Below, one piece after another: positions 6,523 to 33,443 of a DNA stretch of 36,625 nt (its first letter is position 1; the number at the start of each line of letters is the position of its first letter). This DNA is from Steroidobacteraceae bacterium (lineage in GTDB: Bacteria > Chloroflexota > Limnocylindria > QHBO01): assembly GCA_025935615.1 (NCBI GenBank), contig JAICUY010000010.1:1-36625 (forward strand). The letters are read 5' to 3'. The translations under genes were made by a program, and so were the position numbers. Below the pieces are notes generated by a model, which saw only the letters and a list, made by a program, of their open reading frames with translations, searched no databases and had not been told where the DNA came from.

Positions 6523-6533
<11 letters not shown>

Positions 6534-9500
6534 CCGGGGCGATCTGCAGGTCCGCTTCGAGCCTGGCCACGCGATCGAGGTTGTCGGTGGTCGCCGCGCC
6601 GGCTCGAGCCATGAGGCGGATCGCCTTGGCCGCGCCCCACGGTGCCGGCAGCGCATCGAAGGCGGCCAGTGACGCGCGCGCCAGGTCCGCGGCCGCCGGG
6701 GCGTCGCCGCGAACCAGCGCCAGCCGGCCACGCACCAGCGACTCACTGCCGGTGCGGTACGGCGTCATCCAGCCGGGGCTGCCGTTCCAGGAGTCCATGC
6801 GCTCGACGGCCGCGTCCACCAGGTCGAGCCGTCCGTCGTGCAGCCAGGCATCCAGCACCGTCTCCATCGCCGCGAAGAACGAGGCCATGCCCGGAGCCTC
6901 GGTCCAGATGTCGAGCAGGTCCGGGCCAGGCTCGAACGCCGGAAGCAGGCCGGCCGCCACGAAGCGCAGGTCCATGGCGGCGTGCATGAAGCGTCCGAAG
7001 GGCGAGTCAGGGAAGGTGCCACGCTTGGGGTCGAGCCAGGCCTTGGCCCGCGCCAGCGCATCGGTCCGGCCCTGGGCCAGGGCGATGGGGGTCAGCACCG
7101 TCCAGGTGCGGACCACCGGCCGGTGGTAGGCGTTCGCCTCGCCGATGGCGACGGCGCGCTCACCGGCCGCCCAGGCGAGGATCCAGTCGCCGGTCACGAG
7201 CGTCGCCTCGGCGCGGTCGTAGGCGACCCACGCCTCGTCCTCGCGGACGCCGTGCGCGGTGGCAAGGTCCTCGGCGCGGTCGAGCAGCGGACCGACGTTC
7301 GCCGGGTCGGTCTCGACGCTGAGCATCGCCGCCGAGCGCAGCGCCGCTCCCGCGCGGCGTGGATTGCCGGCCTGCAGCGCCAGCTCGACCAGGCGCAGGC
7401 TGCCGTCCACCAGCTCGTCGCGACCGATGCGGCCGAGCTCGATCAGCACGCCGTCGCGCTGGAACTCGGCGTCGAGCTGCAGGCCGGTCTCGCCCGCCCG
7501 CTCGGCGATGCGGATGACGCGCTCCAGCTCGTCGACCACATCCGTGCTGCCCTGGTACGCGATGCGCGCCCAGGCCCGCGTATAGAGCAGGCGGGCTGTG
7601 GCCAGATCGTCGGCCTCGCCGATGCGCGCCAGCGCCTCCTCCGCCGCCTGCTCGGCGGGCACGAACTGGAGCTGCTCGATCAGCACCTCGCCCAGCGCGC
7701 TGACGCTGCGAGCGAACCCGTCACGCGCCGCGGCACGCGTTTCGCCACCGGCCTCGAGCCGCTCGGCAAAGGCGGCCGCTGCGGCACGGTAGGCAGCCAG
7801 CGCCTCGTCCATGTCGCCGCTGAAGGCGGTCGCGTCGCCCAGCCGATGCAGCCGGCGCGCGGTGACCAGCGGCTCGTCCTCGGCCGCCAGTTCGAGTGCG
7901 CGTCGCAGCTGCGCGGCCGCGGTCAGCGGCGCGGCTGTGGCGAGTGCCTGCTCGGCCGCCCGCTCGAGCCAGGACGCGGCGAGCACGACGAGGTCCGGAC
8001 GGGCCAGGCCGCCCGGGAGGCGAGGCGTCAGCGCCGGGAGCGCCGCGAGTGCATCGTCGAGATGGTGCGCGATCTCGGCCGCGATCAGCGCCACCCGCTC
8101 CCCGGCCGCCTCCTCGAGCCAATGCGCCAGCCGGACGTGGAGGTCGGCGCGCTCCAGGCGAGCGAGGCTCGCATAGCCGGCGTCGCGCAGCAGCGCATGG
8201 CGATACGCGTAGCCGTCACCCAGGAGCGCGGGACGCGGCCCGACCAGCAGGGCGCGGGTGCGCAGCTCATCGAGGGCTGCCGCATCGTCGGCCTCGAGGG
8301 CGGCGAGCGACTGCTCGACGAAGCGCCGTCCGGCGACCGAGGCACGTCGCGCCAGGCGGCGGGCATTCGCGGGCAGGTCGTCGAGCTGGGCGGCGTAGAT
8401 GGCCTGCACCGTCGAGGGCAGCGGCGCATCGGCCGGAGAGGTTGTGAGGCGCCAGCCACGGTCATCGGCGGCCAGCACGCCGACGCTGATCCACGACCGC
8501 AGCAGCTCCTCGATGAACAGCGGGGTGCCGTCCGAGCGCTCGACGATGCGGTCCACCAGCGGCGCCGGCAGCGCCTCGCCGACCAGGTGGGTGACCAGGT
8601 CGCGGGCGTCAAGCGCGGCCAGCGGAGCCAGCTCGAGCCGCTCGACGCAAGGCTCACCGCGCGGCTCGCACCATGGCCCGGCGCGCTCGAGCAGCGCCGG
8701 TCTGGTCGTAACCACCATGGGCCGGCCGGCGTCGAGCGCCGCGTCGAGGAAGGCGAGCAGGTCCGGCTCGGCCCAGTGGACGTCCTCGATCATCCAGGCC
8801 GAGCGTGCGTGTGGCGCCTCCAGGCCGCCGAGGACCTCGAGCCAGGCCGCGAAGCGCTCGTCGCGATCCGTGGGTGGGGCGGCGGCGGCCGAGGGACGCA
8901 CGAGGGCGAGCGCCGCGTCGACCAGGACGGCGCGCCGTGCCTCGCGGATCGCGGCGGCCTCGAGGGCGGTGTGCAGGGCGGCGCGCAGCTCAGCGTCGGT
9001 CGCAGCCCCGGACAGGGCGAGCGCGTCGAGCAGCAGCTGGGCCACCGGCTCAAAGGCCGATGCGCCGTCGGGCCTGACGGAGGCGCGACGAACCTTCACG
9101 CCGCCAGCGTCGAGCGATTCCGCGATCGCGGCCAGCAGCCGGCTCTTGCCGACGCCCGGAGGCGCGACGATCAGCCAGCGCACGCCGGCGCGAGCGGCGG
9201 CAAGGCTGCCGCGGATGCGTTCCAGCTCGGCATCGCGGCCGATGAGCGGAGCACGCAGCGCACCCATCGCCCGGCTGCGCTCGGGACGTGGCAGCAGGCG
9301 GACCGCCACCGCGGCGCGAACCGGCTCGGACTTCCCCTTGAGCGCCACAGCTTCGACCGGCTGCAGCTCGGCCGATGCAGCCAGCGCGAAGGCCGTGAGC
9401 TCGCCGACCAGCACCTGCGACGGCTCGGCGGCGGCCTGCAGTCGCGCGGCGACGTTGACCGTGTCGCCCGTCACGCGGCCGACATCCGGGCCGGATTCGG

Positions 9501-9858
9501 CGGCCACCACCTCGCCGGTGTTGATCCCGACTCGGACCTGGAGGCGGCCGGGCTCGAGGCCGAGCTGCGCGCCCAGCGCCTCGACGGCCGCGATCAGCGA
9601 CAGCCCAGCCGCGACGGCGCGCTCCGGATCGTCGTCGCGGCCACGGGGCAGCCCGAAGACCGCCATGGCTGCGTCACCGATGAACTTCTCGAGCTGCCCG
9701 CCGTGGCGCCGCATCACGTCGCGGACTGCCGCGAAATAAGCATCCTGGATGGTCGCCACGTCCTCCGGGTCGAGCCCTTCGGAGAGCGGCGTGAAGCCGA
9801 CCAGGTCGGCGAACAGAACGCTGACGATGCGGCGCTCGACGAAATTCGGCGGCTGCAT
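6523..9858 (-). CDS. Class III adenylate/guanylate cyclase-AAA ATPase-TPR regulatory protein
   Basis: A 1111-residue multidomain signalling protein. Residues ~8-190 form a class III nucleotide cyclase domain: [16 protein letters not shown] supplies the first metal Asp, [13 protein letters not shown] the second Asp and a purine-selecting Lys, then GINTGEV and [13 protein letters not shown]. Residues ~205-480 are an AAA/STAND-type ATPase: [13 protein letters not shown], Walker [12 protein letters not shown], Walker B-like [14 protein letters not shown]. The remaining ~600 residues are Ala/Leu/Glu-rich helical repeats, probably TPR-like, for protein or ligand sensing. No membrane segment, so cytosolic. 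Such cyclase-ATPase-TPR proteins are common in high-GC soil bacteria; ligands are mostly unknown. It follows the VOC gene by 6 nt, so they are probably co-transcribed. cAMP receivers (29507 and the MFS C-terminal domain) are elsewhere in the window. Confidence 0.9.
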
Positions 9859-27825: not shown

Positions 27826-27831
27826 AACGCC

Positions 27832-29502
27832 CTGGGCGTCCTGCGCACCTATCGACGCCTGCTCTCCAACCCGGACCTGACCCGGCTGCTGGCCGGGGAG
27901 TTCGTGTCCGGCATCGGTGACTGGCTGTACCTGGTGGCGCTGCTGGTGGTCGTTTACCAGCGCGAGGGCTCGGCGATCGTGCTCGGCATCGTCGGCGCGG
28001 CACGCGTCACGCCCTACATCCTGCTGTCCGTACCGGCCGGGATCATCGTCGACCGGTTCGACCGCCGCATGGTGCTGATCGTCACCGACATCGCGCGCGG
28101 GCTGACCATGCTCGGGCTGGCGGTGCTGGTGGTGATCGAGGCACCGCTGTGGCAGATCGTGCTGCTCACCATCCTGGCCGCCTGCTTCTCCACCTTCTTC
28201 GGTCCTGCCATCGGCGCCCTGCTGCCGAGCCTGACCCGCGACGAGTCGGAGCTCGGGCCGGCCAACAGCGCCTGGGCCACGCTCGACAACCTGGCCTTCG
28301 TCATCGGTCCCGCCCTGGGTGGCGTCCTGATCGCAGCCGGCGGCCTGGCATTCGCCTTCATCCTCAATGCCATCAGCTTCGCGCTGGTGGCGGTGGTGCT
28401 CTGGCAGCTGCCGCGGCGCGTCCCGTCGGCGACGGCGACGGCCCTGGAAGCTGCCGCCGGCGAGCGCGAGGAGCAACCGAAACGGCCATTCCTCGAGGAG
28501 GTGCGCAGCCGGCTGCGCCCGCTGTCCGGCATGACGCTCATCAACGCCGTCGACAGCTTCGTCTTCGGCGGCCTCAGCGTGCTGACGGTGGTCATCGCCG
28601 TCGACGTGCTGCGGCAGGGCGACGCTGCGACGGGCTATCTCAACGCCGCGGTCGGACTCGGCGGCATGCTGGGCGCCATCGCTTCCGGCGTGCTGGTCCT
28701 CGGCCGGCGCCTTGCGCCGCCGCTGCTGGCCGGCGGGATCGTGCTCGGTCTCGGCCTCATCCTGCTCGGACCTTCCGGGAGCCTGATCCCGGCGCTGGTC
28801 GCCATGACGGTGGCAGCCGCCGGCAGCCTGCTGGTTGACGTGGTGAGCACCACGCTGTTTCAGCGCACCGTGCCGGACGAGATCCGGGGACGCACGCTCG
28901 GCATGCTCAACACGGTGTCCGTCACCGCCTATGCCGCCGGCTCATTCCTGCTGCCCTTCTTCTCCGACGTGGTCGGCGTGGTGCCGGTGCTGATTACCGC
29001 CGGGGGACTGATGGTGGTCGCCACCGTGGTCGGCGTCTTCCTGATCGGCCCCGCCGCCATCCGGCCACTTTCGCTGACGCCCGAGCAGGAGCGCTTTGCT
29101 CGGCTGAGCGCCTTCTCGGGCCTGCCGACCGGTCGGCTCGAGGCAGCAGCGCAGCAGGGCCAGGAGGTGGTCGTCGCGCCCGATACGGTGGTGGTCCGCC
29201 AGGGCGACGCGGCCGATCGGTTCTACTACATCCTCGAGGGCAGCTTCGAGGTGACGCAGGTGCCCGATGGTGGCGTGAAGCCGGTCAGCCTGCGGCAGAT
29301 GGGACCGGACGAGGTCTTCGGCGAGATCGGGCTCATCTCCGGCGTGCCGCGGACGGCGACCGTGACGGCAACCACCACCGGCCGCCTGCTGGCACTCGAT
29401 GGCGACGCGTTCCTGGACCTGGTCGGCAGCGCATCGGGCTCGTCGGCCCGCTTCCTGGACCTGCACCGCGGCAGCGTCCCGAGCCGGGCGGCGGCAGGCT
29501 GA
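27832..29502 (+). CDS. MFS transporter with C-terminal cyclic-nucleotide-binding domain
   Basis: ~556 residues. The first ~420 are a major-facilitator transporter with many hydrophobic segments (LYLVALLVVVYQREGSAIVL; IVLLTILAACFSTFFGPAIGALL; LVAMTVAAAGSLLVDVV), with loop motifs such as GIIVDRFDRR and PDEIRGRTLGML. About 430-545 is a cNMP-binding domain: VVVRQGDAADRFYYILEGSFEV and MGPDEVFGEIGLISGVPRTATV, whose GEIGL-x-PR-x-A resembles the phosphate-binding cassette. The MFS family start LGVLRTYRRLLSNPDLTRL needs a CTG at 27832, since the TAG of the upstream gene is in frame and no ATG/GTG/TTG occurs before GTG 27904; GGAGG lies ~10 nt upstream. GTG 27904 would lose the beginning of helix 1. 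It precedes a CRP/FNR gene by 4 bp. Confidence 0.85.
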   Translation: MGVLRTYRRLLSNPDLTRLLAGEFVSGIGDWLYLVALLVVVYQREGSAIVLGIVGAARVTPYILLSVPAGIIVDRFDRRMVLIVTDIARGLTMLGLAVLVVIEAPLWQIVLLTILAACFSTFFGPAIGALLPSLTRDESELGPANSAWATLDNLAFVIGPALGGVLIAAGGLAFAFILNAISFALVAVVLWQLPRRVPSATATALEAAAGEREEQPKRPFLEEVRSRLRPLSGMTLINAVDSFVFGGLSVLTVVIAVDVLRQGDAATGYLNAAVGLGGMLGAIASGVLVLGRRLAPPLLAGGIVLGLGLILLGPSGSLIPALVAMTVAAAGSLLVDVVSTTLFQRTVPDEIRGRTLGMLNTVSVTAYAAGSFLLPFFSDVVGVVPVLITAGGLMVVATVVGVFLIGPAAIRPLSLTPEQERFARLSAFSGLPTGRLEAAAQQGQEVVVAPDTVVVRQGDAADRFYYILEGSFEVTQVPDGGVKPVSLRQMGPDEVFGEIGLISGVPRTATVTATTTGRLLALDGDAFLDLVGSASGSSARFLDLHRGSVPSRAAAG

Positions 29503-29506
29503 CGCG

Positions 29507-30202
29507 ATGCTTCCCAACGGGCAGGGCCTGACCCAGCTGCGCTCCTCGCCGCTCTTCAACCAGTGCGGCGATGACGTGCTGAGGGAGGTCGAGCGACGGC
29601 TGCGCCGCCGCCAGTTCCGCCGCGGAGAGGTGATCTTTCACCAGGGCGACCCCGGCGACGCGCTGCACGTGGTGGGCACTGGATCGGTCAAGATCGTCCT
29701 GCCGTCGTCCGAAGGGGACGAGGCGATCATCGCCACCCTGCGGCCCGGCGATTTCTTCGGGGAGCTGGCGCTGCTCGACAGCGCCCCGCACTCCGCCACC
29801 GCGGTGGCGGTCGAGCCGACCGAGACGTTCACCCTGCCGCGCGATGTCTTTCTCGAGCTGCTCGGCGAGCAACCCGCCCTGCGGGACGCGCTGCTCAAGG
29901 GACTTGCCGTCGAGCTGCGGCGCCTGACCGGGCATGTCGAAGAGCTGCACTTCCTCGACCTCGCCGGGCGATTGGCCATGCGCCTCGCGCGCCTCGCCGA
30001 GGAGCAGGGACGCGACCCGTCGGGCGAGGTGAGCCTCGACTGGCCATATACGCAGTCGGACCTGGCGGCCATGATCGGCGGGACGCGCCAGAGCGTGAAC
30101 CGGCTGCTCAGCGAGCTGGTCGACGACGGCCTGGTGCGCATCGAGCGCGACCGGCTGATCATCGGCGATCTCGATGAGCTCGCGCGGCGAGCCGAGCGCT
30201 GA
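29507..30202 (+). CDS. CRP/FNR family transcriptional regulator
   Basis: 231 residues. About 10-120 is a cyclic-nucleotide-type beta barrel with VIFHQGDPGDALHVVGTGSV and LRPGDFFGELALLDSAPHSATAVA; the GELALLD-x-x-PHSATA cassette is close to cAMP-binding CRP (GELALLDxxPRxAT) but has His-Ser in place of Arg-Ser. A long dimerisation helix follows, and the HTH is at about 165-205: YTQSDLAAMIGGTRQSVNRLLSEL. No cysteine cluster suggests it is not an Fe-S FNR. The start ATG 29507 is 4 bp after the transporter gene, so the MFS-cNMP transporter and CRP are probably one unit. Confidence 0.93.
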   Translation: MLPNGQGLTQLRSSPLFNQCGDDVLREVERRLRRRQFRRGEVIFHQGDPGDALHVVGTGSVKIVLPSSEGDEAIIATLRPGDFFGELALLDSAPHSATAVAVEPTETFTLPRDVFLELLGEQPALRDALLKGLAVELRRLTGHVEELHFLDLAGRLAMRLARLAEEQGRDPSGEVSLDWPYTQSDLAAMIGGTRQSVNRLLSELVDDGLVRIERDRLIIGDLDELARRAER

Positions 30203-30352
30203 GCCTGTCGGCGAATTGACATCGAGCGCGTCACCGAACCGATTCATCCCCTTGCATCGGCTCGGTAAGGTGCAGAGCAACAGGCGGTCGCCCAGCCGGC
30301 GGCCATGAAGCGAACAAACGCTCAGCCCAAACAGAGGAGAGGAATCAAACCA
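30203..30352 (+). promoter_or_regulatory. Leader and promoter region of the repeat peptide gene
   Basis: A non-coding stretch noticeably richer in A than its surroundings toward its 3' end. It contains TTGACA at 30216-30221, without a convincing -10 at standard spacing, and TAAGGT at 30266-30271 as a possible -10, giving a ~75-nt leader. AGGAGAGG ends ~10 nt before ATG 30353 and is a good ribosome binding site. An in-frame ATG at 30305 is used by the track, but the intervening codons (CGA, ACA, AGG, AGA) are atypical of this genome, so I read it as leader. Confidence 0.4.
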
Positions 30353-30616
30353 ATGGGTAATCTGAAGAGCGGCAACCTGAAGGCCACCGGCGATGACGAC
30401 GTGCAGGGTCACGGCAATCTGAAGTCGGGCAACCTGAAGGCGACCGAGGACGATGACGTCGCCGGTCACGGCAACCTGAAGAGCGGCAACCTGAAGGCCA
30501 GTGAGGACGATGACGTCACCGGTCACGGCAACCTGAAGAGTGGCAACCTCAAGGCGACCGACGACGACGACGTCGAGGGTCATCAGGCCTCGTTCCGCAG
30601 CCACAAGATCAAGTAG
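30353..30616 (+). CDS. Four-repeat small peptide, putative precursor or protease substrate
   Basis: An 87-residue protein of four tandem 19-residue units of the form GNLKSGNLKAT-x-DDDV-x-GH, then the tail QASFRSHKIK. Only four positions vary between the units. Each unit is itself an internal duplication, GNLKS-GNLKA, which echoes pentapeptide-repeat style (x-N-L-x-x) but is too short for a beta-helix. There is no signal peptide, membrane segment or cysteine. The 57-bp units differ at synonymous sites (GGT/GGC, AAT/AAC, AGC/TCG/AGT, CTG/CTC), so selection has preserved the peptide. It is followed by a terminator-like hairpin, then GAF and S8 protease genes. A multi-core precursor or a protease substrate is my best guess; no family is recognised with certainty. 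Confidence 0.85.
   Translation: MGNLKSGNLKATGDDDVQGHGNLKSGNLKATEDDDVAGHGNLKSGNLKASEDDDVTGHGNLKSGNLKATDDDDVEGHQASFRSHKIK
30356..30583 (+). repeat. Four tandem 57-bp repeats within the peptide gene
   Basis: Repeats at 30356-30412, 30413-30469, 30470-30526 and 30527-30583, each encoding 19 residues beginning Gly-Asn-Leu-Lys and ending Gly-His. The copy borders are exact at the codon level. Copies differ mainly at third positions. Confidence 0.95.
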
Positions 30617-30628
30617 CCCGAGCGCAGG

Positions 30629-30662
30629 GCGGGGCCATCGTTGAACCGATGAGCCCCGCTTT
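30629..30662 (+). terminator. Rho-independent-terminator-like hairpin after the repeat peptide
   Basis: GCGGGGC (30629-30635) and CATCG (30636-30640) pair with CGATG (30647-30651) and GCCCCGC (30653-30659) around a TTGAAC loop, a 12-bp stem with a single bulged A (30652), followed by TTT. The T-run is short, so termination may be partial, making high peptide and lower GAF/protease expression possible. The GAF ATG is at 30666, immediately downstream. Confidence 0.7.
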
Positions 30663-30665
30663 CGC

Positions 30666-31442
30666 ATGACCAGCGCCGATCGGGCGAATCTCGAAGCGAC
30701 GGTCGCCTCCCTCAGGGAGGCGACTCTGCGCGCCGCGGTGGCGGGGCGGCTGCATCCCGACATGGAGCAGCGGCTGCTCCAGTCGATCGTGGACGCCACG
30801 GTGCGTCTGTTCGACGCCGAGGCATCCTCGATCGCGCTCTTCGAGACCGATCCGGACCGGCTCGTCTTCCGTGTGGCGGCCGGCGCGCAGGGTGCCGGCG
30901 CCATCGGCATGTCGATTCCGCCGACCCAGGGCATCGCCGGCTACGTCTTCTCGACCGGCCAGGCCCTGGCCCTCTCCGACGTCGCCTCCGATCCGCGCTT
31001 CAACCGCGCGGCCGCGGAGAAGACCGGCTACGTGCCGCGCTCGATCGCGGCCGTCCCGCTGCTCGACGAGAACGGCACCGTCGGCGTGCTGCAGGTGCTC
31101 GACAAGCGGGGCGAGCCGGCCTTCACCCTGCGCGACATGGATCTGATGGGCGTCTTCGCCCGCCAGGCCGCCACGGCCATCGCCGCCACCCGCGTGCAGC
31201 GCGACCTGCCGTCGCTGCTGCGGGCGGCCCTCAGCGAGCTCGACGGGGAGCTGAACGACGAGCAGCTCGACGAGCTCGTGGGTGCGGCGGCAGCCGAGCT
31301 CGACGCCGCCGAGGAGTCGCCGCTGTGGCGCATCGCCGACGCGGTGGCACGCACCCGCGCCCTCGGCGAGTCTGAGCAGGCTCTGGTGGCTCAGATCCTC
31401 GAGGCGATCGCCGCGCACGCGCGCCAGCGCCGCCGACGCTGA
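30666..31442 (+). CDS. GAF domain protein paired with S8 protease
   Basis: 258 residues. About 33-180 is a GAF sensor domain: LLQSIVDATVRLFDAEASSIALFE, VAAGAQGAGAIGMSIPPTQGIAGYVFSTGQ and the closing PRSIAAVPLLDENGTVGVLQVLDK, the typical GAF ending. The C-terminal ~75 residues are helical and acidic (RAALSELDGELNDEQLDELVGAAAAELDAAEE), then a short basic tail RQRRRR. There is no output enzyme, HTH or kinase, so it probably binds a small ligand and a partner protein. It has no Shine-Dalgarno (the hairpin sits there) and its TGA overlaps the protease ATG (TGATG), arguing for coupled translation. Confidence 0.85.
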   Translation: MTSADRANLEATVASLREATLRAAVAGRLHPDMEQRLLQSIVDATVRLFDAEASSIALFETDPDRLVFRVAAGAQGAGAIGMSIPPTQGIAGYVFSTGQALALSDVASDPRFNRAAAEKTGYVPRSIAAVPLLDENGTVGVLQVLDKRGEPAFTLRDMDLMGVFARQAATAIAATRVQRDLPSLLRAALSELDGELNDEQLDELVGAAAAELDAAEESPLWRIADAVARTRALGESEQALVAQILEAIAAHARQRRRR

Positions 31443-32335
31443 TGCCTCCCGAAGAGGAGGAGCCACTCGCCTGGTCGGAACCGTTCGCCGTCGCCGCACG
31501 GCTGGCCCGACAGTCGAGCCTGCGGACCGTCGACCGCAACTGGGCCTGGGGCGGCGCCACCGGCAAGGGCGTGACGGTGGCGATCATCGACAGCGGTGTC
31601 GAGGGCACGCACCCCATGGTGCGGGGCCGGCTGATCGAGAGCGTGGCGGTGCGCGTCACCGAGGAGAGCGACGTGGTGGTCGAGCCCGAGCCGGATGGCA
31701 CCGACCTGTTCGGACACGGCACGGCCTGCGCCGGGATCATCGTCGGCATGGCACCCGAGGTCGAGATCGTGTCGGTCCGCGTGCTGGGCGCTGACCTGAA
31801 GGGCAAGGGCGCGGCCTTCGCGGCGGGCCTCGAGTGGGCCATCGAGCGCGGGGTGCAGGTGGCGAACCTGTCGCTGTCATCGAAGTCGGAGTCGCTCTTC
31901 CCGATCTTCCACGAACTGGCCGATGACGCCTACTTCCGCAACACGGTGCTGGTCTCGGCCGCCAACAACGTGCCCGTGCCGAGCTACCCGTCGCTCTTCG
32001 CATCGGTCATTTCGGTGGCGGCCCATGCCGAGCCTGATCCGATGCGCTTCTACTACAACCCCTCGCCGCCGGTCGAGTTCGGCGGCTGGGGTGTCGACGT
32101 GCCGATCGCCTGGAAGGACGGCACGCAGATCGTCGCCACCGGCAACAGCTTCGCGGCGCCGCACATCGCCGGGCTGGTGACGCTGATCGTGTCGAAGCAC
32201 CCGGGACTCACGCCATTCGAGGTCAAGACCATCCTGACCGCCACGGCCGACAACCCGATCGGGCCTCAGCCCAGCGACGTCGCGAGCCCGCCCAGGAAGC
32301 CGACGGCCGACTCGCCCAGCACCTCGACCGCGTAG
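31442..32335 (+). CDS. Subtilisin-like (S8) serine protease, apparently intracellular
   Basis: 297-residue S8 peptidase with a complete triad: D50 (VAIIDSGVEGTHP), H92 (LFGHGTACAGII) and S236 (ATGNSFAAPHIAGL), plus the oxyanion Asn near N175 (VSAANNVP). There is no signal peptide, pro-region or membrane anchor, unlike ordinary secreted subtilisins, so it should act in the cytoplasm. The order repeat peptide / GAF / protease, with the GAF stop and protease start overlapping, points to the peptide as substrate and the GAF protein as control. The last 70 bp overlap the convergent deacetylase gene, and the C-terminal ~23 residues (Pro/Ser-rich) may be non-essential. S8 proteases also mature cyanobactin-type multi-core precursors, a known precedent. 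Confidence 0.93.
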   Translation: MPPEEEEPLAWSEPFAVAARLARQSSLRTVDRNWAWGGATGKGVTVAIIDSGVEGTHPMVRGRLIESVAVRVTEESDVVVEPEPDGTDLFGHGTACAGIIVGMAPEVEIVSVRVLGADLKGKGAAFAAGLEWAIERGVQVANLSLSSKSESLFPIFHELADDAYFRNTVLVSAANNVPVPSYPSLFASVISVAAHAEPDPMRFYYNPSPPVEFGGWGVDVPIAWKDGTQIVATGNSFAAPHIAGLVTLIVSKHPGLTPFEVKTILTATADNPIGPQPSDVASPPRKPTADSPSTSTA

Positions 32336-33333
32336 CCGCCCTCCTGCACGACGACCACGCCGCGTCGTCCATGACCGATGCGGTCCCCCAATCGCACATA
32401 GTCCGGTGTCTGCAGCGAGAAACCGCCGATCGGATCCGCGACGTGGGTGTCGAAGCCGAGTGAGACGACCAGCGGGGCGTCCGGCGCGAACGCGTCGATC
32501 CGCCGCAGGGCCGCGTCGAGAGCCTCGGCATACCGAGCCAGTTCGGTGCCGGGCGGCAGCGGAATATTGACCGTTGCTCCTTCTCCCGGCCCGCCGCCGG
32601 TCTCGGCCACGCGGCCGCTGAAGTACGGGTAGCCGTGCTCCGGATCGGCGTGCAGCGAGACGTACAGCACGTCGCCCCGCTCCCAGAACAGCTGCTGCGT
32701 GCCGTTGCCGTGGTGGTAGTCGATGTCGAGGATCGCCACCCGCTCGAAGCGGGCGCGTCGCAGCCACTCGGCCACGATCGCGGCGTTGTTGAAGAAGCAG
32801 TAGCCGCCGTACATGCGCCGCGCGGCGTGGTGCCCCGGCGGCCGGCACAGCCCGTAGGCCAGCGGCGCGCCGTCGACCACCTGCTGCGCGGCGGTCAGGG
32901 CCACGTCGACCGCTGCCCGGGCGGCTGCGTAGCTGCCCCCGACGATCGGGGTGGCGGTGTCGAAGCAGAAGGCGCCCAGCCGCTCCAGGCCGCCGCGCGG
33001 AAGCGCGGTCGGCATCGGTCCCGGATAGGCGCTCAGCAGGAAGGTGTCAGGGATGAGCGGACCCTGATGACCGGCGGCCGCTGCCAGCGGCCACGCGTTC
33101 TCGAGGACCTCGATCAGCTCCGCGTCGTGCACCGCCAGGATCGGCGCGCTGCCGTGGTCGTCAGGCGAGCGGATGCTAAAGCGGCCGTCCGCCTGCAGAG
33201 CTGCCAAGATGGCCTCCGCCCGCTCGGGCGATTCGTAACACGGAACGGTGCGGCCGGCGACGACCTCGGTCAGCCCGCTGTGCGCCAGATGAGCATCCGA
33301 CGCGACGACCGGAACGACCGAGGCCGCCTCCAT
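32266..33333 (-). CDS. Histone deacetylase / acetylpolyamine amidohydrolase family protein
   Basis: 355-residue zinc amidohydrolase. Catalytic His pair in CRPPGHHAARRMYGGYCFFNNAA, zinc ligands in AILDIDYHHGNGTQQ (Asp and His) and SLGFDTHVADPIGGF (Asp), and the transition-state Tyr in VQEGGYAVEVLG. The N-terminus VVASDAHLAHSGLTEVVAGRTVPCYESPERAEAI fits the acetylpolyamine amidohydrolase group more than class I deacetylases. Substrates may be acetylated polyamines or small amides, such as acetoin-type molecules. Start ATG 33333 is preferred over the track's 33402 because the family begins near VVPVVASDAH. The 3' end overlaps the protease gene by 70 bp on opposite strands. Confidence 0.9.
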   Translation of the reverse strand: MEAASVVPVVASDAHLAHSGLTEVVAGRTVPCYESPERAEAILAALQADGRFSIRSPDDHGSAPILAVHDAELIEVLENAWPLAAAAGHQGPLIPDTFLLSAYPGPMPTALPRGGLERLGAFCFDTATPIVGGSYAAARAAVDVALTAAQQVVDGAPLAYGLCRPPGHHAARRMYGGYCFFNNAAIVAEWLRRARFERVAILDIDYHHGNGTQQLFWERGDVLYVSLHADPEHGYPYFSGRVAETGGGPGEGATVNIPLPPGTELARYAEALDAALRRIDAFAPDAPLVVSLGFDTHVADPIGGFSLQTPDYVRLGDRIGHGRRGVVVVQEGGYAVEVLGESAVGFLGGLATSLG

Positions 33334-33443
33334 GCCGCGGTCAGGCCGGAACGCCGCAGGCGCCCCAACGGGCAACCTCGGCGTCGAGATCGAGCGGCAC
33401 AACGGTCGCCGGGTGGTTGAGGCGGGTGATGGTCATCGGGCCG
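33334..33443 (-). other. Short gap with a 31-residue unrecognised reading frame
   Basis: On the minus strand 33341-33436 encodes MTITRLNHPATVVPLDLDAE and 11 further residues before TGA. It is out of frame with the deacetylase and resembles no family that I know. It could be a small protein, an upstream peptide of the deacetylase gene, or debris like the neighbouring remnant. Confidence 0.3.

Follow-up and report, generated by a model that had tools for sequence, protein, structure and literature searches.

The locus examined here raises the question of what a small peptide built from near-identical units is doing beside a GAF protein and a subtilisin-like protease. The earlier note on this DNA had proposed signal-controlled cleavage of the peptide into repeated small products or, alternatively, a peptide acting as an inhibitor or decoy of the protease. 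The genes and elements concerned lie in a 36,625-nt stretch of DNA, analyzed as a whole and referred to below as the window, which is part of a 68%-complete genome bin. They are as follows, all on the forward strand.

27904..29502 (+): MFS transporter with a C-terminal cNMP-binding domain, putative peptide exporter (PF07690, E 3.6e-37; PF00027, E 2.6e-19)
29510..30202 (+): Crp/FNR-type regulator with a cNMP-binding domain and an HTH (PF00027, 3e-28; PF13545, 1.2e-16)
30334..30343 (+): strong ribosome-binding site of the peptide gene, GAGGAGAGGA (from sequence)
30353..30616 (+): putative repeat precursor peptide, 87 aa (from sequence and TRF), without a Pfam or NCBIfam family
30356..30412 (+): peptide unit 1, GNLKSGNLKATGDDDVQGH
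30413..30469 (+): peptide unit 2, GNLKSGNLKATEDDDVAGH
30470..30526 (+): peptide unit 3, GNLKSGNLKASEDDDVTGH
30527..30583 (+): peptide unit 4, GNLKSGNLKATDDDDVEGH
30626..30664 (+): stable RNA hairpin between the peptide and GAF genes (-32 kcal/mol, z -4.7)
30666..31442 (+): GAF protein with a C-terminal helical region, putative sensor or partner of the protease (PF01590, E 9.7e-20)
31442..32335 (+): S8 subtilisin-like protease, cytoplasmic, putatively precursor-processing, with triad D50/H92/S236 (PF00082, E 6.7e-30)

The repeat peptide and its neighbors

Translation and TRF agreed on the four 19-residue units that had been described in the 87-residue peptide. The units are near-identical, with the form GNLKSGNLKA(T/S)xDDDVxGH, and are followed by a C-terminal tail, QASFRSHKIK; in the DNA, the repeat has a 57-bp period and 3.7 copies with 82% matches. 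Because the ribosome-binding site sits at 30334–30343, the ATG at 30353, and not position 30305, was taken as the start. The codon differences among the units comprised 32 synonymous and 14 nonsynonymous changes, indicating that the peptide sequence has been kept, beyond the DNA. Searches of Pfam and NCBIfam returned no curated family for the window peptide or for the peptides of any relative, the weak Pfam matches to the repeat sequences being judged composition artefacts, and a plasmid search with the window peptide as the query gave no match. The hairpin that follows the peptide gene may uncouple expression of the peptide from that of the protease. Hairpins of comparable strength and different sequence follow the peptide genes of the two closest relatives (L031 and L032); the hairpin is confined to these loci and the window and is absent in more distant loci, and it was therefore rejected as a general feature of the module.

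The protease is a member of peptidase family S8 (subtilase) by both its triad and its fold. Asp50, His92, and Ser236 were invariant among 33 aligned relatives, and the AlphaFold2 model contained a subtilisin fold over residues 32–274, without a pro-domain, which matched subtilisins with Z ~27 and an rmsd of 2.4–3.0 over ~220 aligned residues. Together with the PF00082 match, these results bear out the intact Asp/His/Ser triad noted earlier, as well as the absence of a signal peptide and a pro-region: no hydrophobic segment was found, and the fold begins near the N-terminus, at residue 32, as expected of a cytoplasmic S8 enzyme. The stop codon of the GAF gene and the start codon of the protease gene do share one base (TGA/ATG at 31442). 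From the other side, a histone-deacetylase-family gene (window 32266–33402, minus strand) converges on the protease gene, with a coding overlap of 70 bp.

The GAF protein was recognized by profile and by fold; of the GAF domains that its model resembled, those of the cyclic-nucleotide type in phosphodiesterases were closest (Z ~20). Because the MFS and Crp-type proteins also carry cNMP domains, this structural likeness suggests control by a second messenger. The peptide and the GAF protein matched no defense family in PADLOC, which elsewhere gave generic subtilase and cNMP-domain matches only, and the locus was not assigned to a known anti-phage system. Contrary to the earlier statement that no transporter is adjacent, the MFS-cNMP gene and the Crp-type gene lie directly upstream on the same strand, and both are conserved in the module. 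The true start of the MFS gene is probably upstream, within 27826–27904. The protein encoded at window 6523–9858 (minus strand), ~18 kb from the MFS-cNMP gene, joins an adenylate/guanylate cyclase domain to an AAA ATPase and is a possible source of a nucleotide signal.

Conservation of the module and its motif

When the peptide was used as a query among 177 genomes of the class, 10 further genomes were found, and the peptide, GAF, S8, and MFS-cNMP genes occurred together in all 10, in varying gene order. The module proteins of the window and these first relatives were mostly 47–74% identical, and relatives of the Crp protein (60–71% identity) were present in nine of the loci; the contig of the tenth is truncated. 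A scan of named genome contigs with an S8 alignment yielded 80 loci, nearly all in Chloroflexota, including Candidatus Limnocylindrales, Anaerolineales, Caldilineales, Thermomicrobiales, and Ktedonosporobacter rubrisoli. De novo clustering of the ORFs around the 80 loci and the window showed only four families to be widely conserved: S8 (81 members), GAF (79), Crp (56), and MFS (51). From this distribution, the window most likely belongs to Chloroflexota, close to the CSP1-4/Limnocylindrales group. At the level of sequence, the peptide, GAF protein, S8 protease, MFS-cNMP protein, and Crp regulator constitute a conserved five-gene module, in which a small precursor gene is kept beside an intact S8 protease across genomes. 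An S8 match in Gemmatirosa was discarded, its ORF listing showing no GAF or motif peptide nearby.

The motif shared by these peptides is (E/D)(D)(D/E)(V/T)E(G/A)H with a small residue after it, in two to eight copies, and the stretches between the motifs are wholly different between genomes and alike within one gene. Acidic residues at -5/-6 and the small residue at +1 are conserved outside the search pattern and sharpen the candidate site. Among 96 non-redundant loci, a GAF gene was found near S8 in 92, and ORFs with at least two [DE][VT]x[GA][HY] motifs lay within 3 kb of S8 in 45; with the reversed motif, the count was 0. Labelling of the motifs was automatic, and some chance hits are included. 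In about half of the S8 relatives, the surrounding 3 kb contained no multi-motif ORF, in part owing to contig ends, and many module members come from fragmented MAGs. In Anaerolineae, the peptides consist of a conserved N-terminal leader, RLxKKLSALRATLxxxERxLLD, repeated EVxAH motifs, and a conserved tail. In a sister family, one motif precedes a basic, helix-like tail. Among the 177 genomes of the class, 33 encode such single-site peptides; 32 of those 33 also encode S8, which is itself present in 60 of the 177 (Fisher p ~2e-17).

The cassette also extends to Actinomycetota. The cultured actinomycete Miltoncostaea oceani has the S8 protease (48% identity), a GAF gene overlapping it by four bases, and an MFS gene, together with the hypothetical protein WP_217924931.1 (185 aa), in which xTEAH or a close variant occurs eight times. 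In a survey of 296 genomes from the phylum to which locus L107 belongs, submitted as Actinomycetota, the S8 subfamily occurred in 10, and GAF adjoined S8 in every one; two of the ten had peptides with repeated EVEAH/DVEAH or EVVAH, and one had a single EVQAH. The actinomycetotal repeat peptide at L190:16169-16825, EVVAHSASNVAWCGVHQE, has a Cys in every unit, whereas the Chloroflexota units are Cys-free. The triplet of peptide, GAF, and protease genes singled out in the earlier note thus recurs in dozens of genomes and extends to a second phylum. A literature search, with most subscription-journal papers outside its scope, found no published account of the cassette, the motifs, or the pairing of GAF with S8, and GAF is not mentioned in a review of leader proteases (PMC10885120).

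GAF-S8 pairs in lanthipeptide clusters and the S1 pocket

The LANTHIPEPTIDES link comes from more distant GAF-S8 pairs, which sit inside RiPP clusters. In ten loci, a RamC/LanKC-type synthetase (class III/IV) directly adjoins the GAF-S8 pair (at L146, without a detected GAF), with the LanKC domains confirmed by Pfam in two of the ten, L102 and L094. The precursors of these loci carry an NHLP-like leader (weak NCBIfam matches), then [DE]V[SAEQT]GY, and then a Cys/Ser/Thr-rich core, as in EELSGEVSGY-LVGNCTVTCILTECTITSL. Because the motif directly precedes the core ([DE]VxGY immediately before it in 10 loci), it marks the border between leader and core.

Variations on this arrangement were seen at individual loci. 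A second lanthipeptide-like precursor upstream of LanKC (L102:3275-3952) has an EVQGF border; therefore, P1 may also be Phe. Two LanKC-GAF-S8-MFS clusters (L158:3034-4959 and L154:3627-4838) each have four to six lanthipeptide-like precursor genes, with [DE]VxGY before each core and GF in one. At L089:8908-10067, three tandem precursor-like genes with a FRSTLxPxEQRxLDAM leader, a [DE]VQGYG border, and Tyr/Pro/Trp-rich tails lie beside GAF-S8, and no LanKC was found on the contig. At L104:4133-9544 (QHXA01000225.1), in a MAG labelled Acidobacteria, GAF-S8-MFS stands beside two YcaO genes, a B12-binding radical SAM gene, TfuA, and an Os1348/Frankia-type precursor.

The proteases were also compared according to whether the motif ended in His (H-type) or Tyr (Y-type). 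The columns that best separated the two were 127, 129, 167, and 151, all at the S1 pocket, in subtilisin BPN' numbering (the alignment places D32, H64, and S221 on the triad). All 13 Y-type loci have Gly127, and 55 of the 57 H-type loci have Ser127. The label of one exception, L153, is put down to chance, its motif hits lying inside long ORFs of doubtful coding frame; the other, L075, carries both motif types. Because the Y-type proteases are essentially one clade, this covariation is not independent of ancestry, which weakens it as proof of specificity and leaves it suggestive. Three GAF-S8 pairs with Gly127/Trp167 at the S1 pocket region (L185, L186, and L188) have no recognizable precursor nearby; their proteases perhaps use another P1 residue or a remote substrate.

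Among known enzymes, ElxP has the site (D/E-5)(L/V-4)X2(Q-1), PatA-like S8 enzymes cut after G(L/V)E(A/P)S, and AmyP reads an EVE motif (PMC10885120). Because of the position of the motif at the border and the register of these S8 leader proteases, we propose that the S8 enzyme is a leader or unit protease that cuts after His or Tyr.

Proposed peptide maturation and relation to known systems

On the basis of the module, its conservation, the motif, and the position of the motif at the lanthipeptide leader/core border, we consider it probable that the locus is a peptide-maturation cassette with a multi-unit precursor, S8 processing, GAF gating, MFS export, and Crp control. The 87-aa protein would be the multi-unit precursor. 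The cytoplasmic S8 protease would recognize the acidic (D/E)(V/T)x(G/A)H at the unit ends and cut, most likely, directly after His, releasing MGNLKSGNLKATGDDDVQGH, three GNLKSGNLKA(T/S)xDDDVxGH peptides (~19 residues), and QASFRSHKIK. The GAF protein, which is translationally coupled to the protease, probably gates or scaffolds S8 on binding a small ligand. Export of the products is the likely task of the MFS-cNMP protein, and expression is probably under the control of the Crp-type protein. The products may finally serve as signals, antimicrobials, or metal-binding peptides. MFS export of peptides is uncommon, and the window module has no dedicated modification enzyme and no typical peptide exporter. 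Of the cleavage model put forward earlier, the cutting into units gains from the identity of the repeated motif with the border motif of lanthipeptide precursors beside the same protease, while control by GAF stays a presumed step.

Alternatively, the peptide might be a true multi-core RiPP, cut only after modification by an enzyme of unknown kind or one whose gene lies elsewhere; the GAF-S8(-MFS) cassette is found in lanthipeptide and YcaO/TfuA clusters, and the Lys, Ser/Thr, and Asp/Glu of the units could conceivably be cross-linked. However, LanC was present in 0 of the 177 genomes of the class and YcaO over its cut-off in 1 of 177, no family beyond S8, GAF, MFS, and Crp is widely conserved around the loci, and the scanned window genes included no radical SAM or other RiPP enzyme. 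The sole ATP-grasp match among them was a biotin carboxylase, and the idea of a graspetide was therefore rejected. Because LanC is absent and YcaO almost nil in the class, the window product is probably unmodified; the window peptide, with no modification enzyme in its cluster, is probably not a classical RiPP, and a LanC-like cyclase or LanKC, absent from the class, occurs only at the distant GAF-S8 loci. We therefore regard a modified multi-core product as unlikely.

If the repeat peptide were a detached pro-region, serving as an inhibitor, chaperone, or decoy that is freed or degraded on a GAF signal, its units would be binding sites; an S8 protease without a pro-domain fits this, and a cytoplasmic protease would presumably need restraint. 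The inhibitor or decoy role, put forward in the earlier note as well, is weakened by the occurrence of the same motif just ahead of the core in lanthipeptide precursors next to the same protease, where the end of a leader is its best reading, and by the separate conserved leader of the Anaerolineae versions. Moreover, variable products fit better than an inhibitor because the inter-motif sequences differ between genomes while the units are alike within a gene, and we judge restraint of the protease to be quite improbable. It is slightly harder still to credit that the repeat protein is itself functional, as an acidic, His-containing metal-binding or disordered stress protein whose lifetime alone is set by S8. 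DDDDVEGH-like segments could bind metal, and the Crp, GAF, and cNMP domains suggest second-messenger control, but the sharp Val/Thr-x-Gly/Ala-His/Tyr motif, its placement at the lanthipeptide leader/core border, and the conserved exporter gene speak against this. The acidic/His motif could also act in some other way, for example in metal binding or docking.

Within the preferred maturation reading, a bolder and distinctly tentative version is prohormone-like: species-specific, unmodified tandem-unit peptides would be cut by a GAF-gated subtilisin at (D/E)(V/T)x(G/A)H, exported by a cyclic-nucleotide-responsive MFS protein, and used as signals, in a system common to Chloroflexota and Actinomycetota whose cassette is also the leader peptidase of Chloroflexota lanthipeptides. 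If the maturation reading is true, this is a peptide-maturation cassette that is widespread, has as yet no name, and cuts at a predictable site, its protease has a short, testable recognition motif, and the peptide products of many uncultured Chloroflexota can be read from sequence. The motif alone could locate precursors outside all current family models, and we propose the protease as the missing leader protease of Chloroflexota class III/IV lanthipeptide clusters.

Compared with known systems, the module would work like S8-dependent processing of multi-core precursors and not like a cyanobactin or lanthipeptide system. The best NCBIfam match of the window protease was to the type VII secretion mycosins (TIGR03921, E 4.7e-35; 121 vs 279 bits), which are membrane-anchored. 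The second best was to QhpE (E 7e-30; 104 vs 165 bits, below the curated cut-off), a compact S8 protease that trims the leader in quinohemoprotein amine dehydrogenase maturation; unlike in QhpE systems, no Qhp genes were seen here. In cyanobactin maturation, PatA/PatG likewise act as S8 proteases on multi-copy cassettes, at a site, G(L/V)E(A/P)S, similar to the (D/E)VE(G/A)H found here (PMC10885120). The cyanobactin analogy drawn earlier therefore stands for the protease step with its PatA-like cut site, but not for modification: LanC and YcaO are nearly absent from the class, the module has no macrocyclase or cyclodehydratase, and the TIGR03895 match is weak (E 0.002; 16.9 bits against a cut-off of 421).

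Leader removal by subtilisin-family enzymes, as proposed here, is performed by the cytoplasmic ElxP in class I lanthipeptides and by AmyP in class III, and the register of the ElxP site is that of [DE][VT]x[GA][HY] (PMC10885120). Unlike in those systems, P1 here is His or Tyr, the protease is coupled to a GAF protein, and many tandem-repeat precursors occur without any modification enzyme. The Chloroflexota class III/IV lanthipeptide clusters (in Ktedonosporobacter and others, with NHLP-like leaders) differ from the window in their LanKC synthetase and single-core precursors, neither of which the window has, but share with it the same GAF-S8(-MFS) cassette and the [DE]VxG(Y) border motif.
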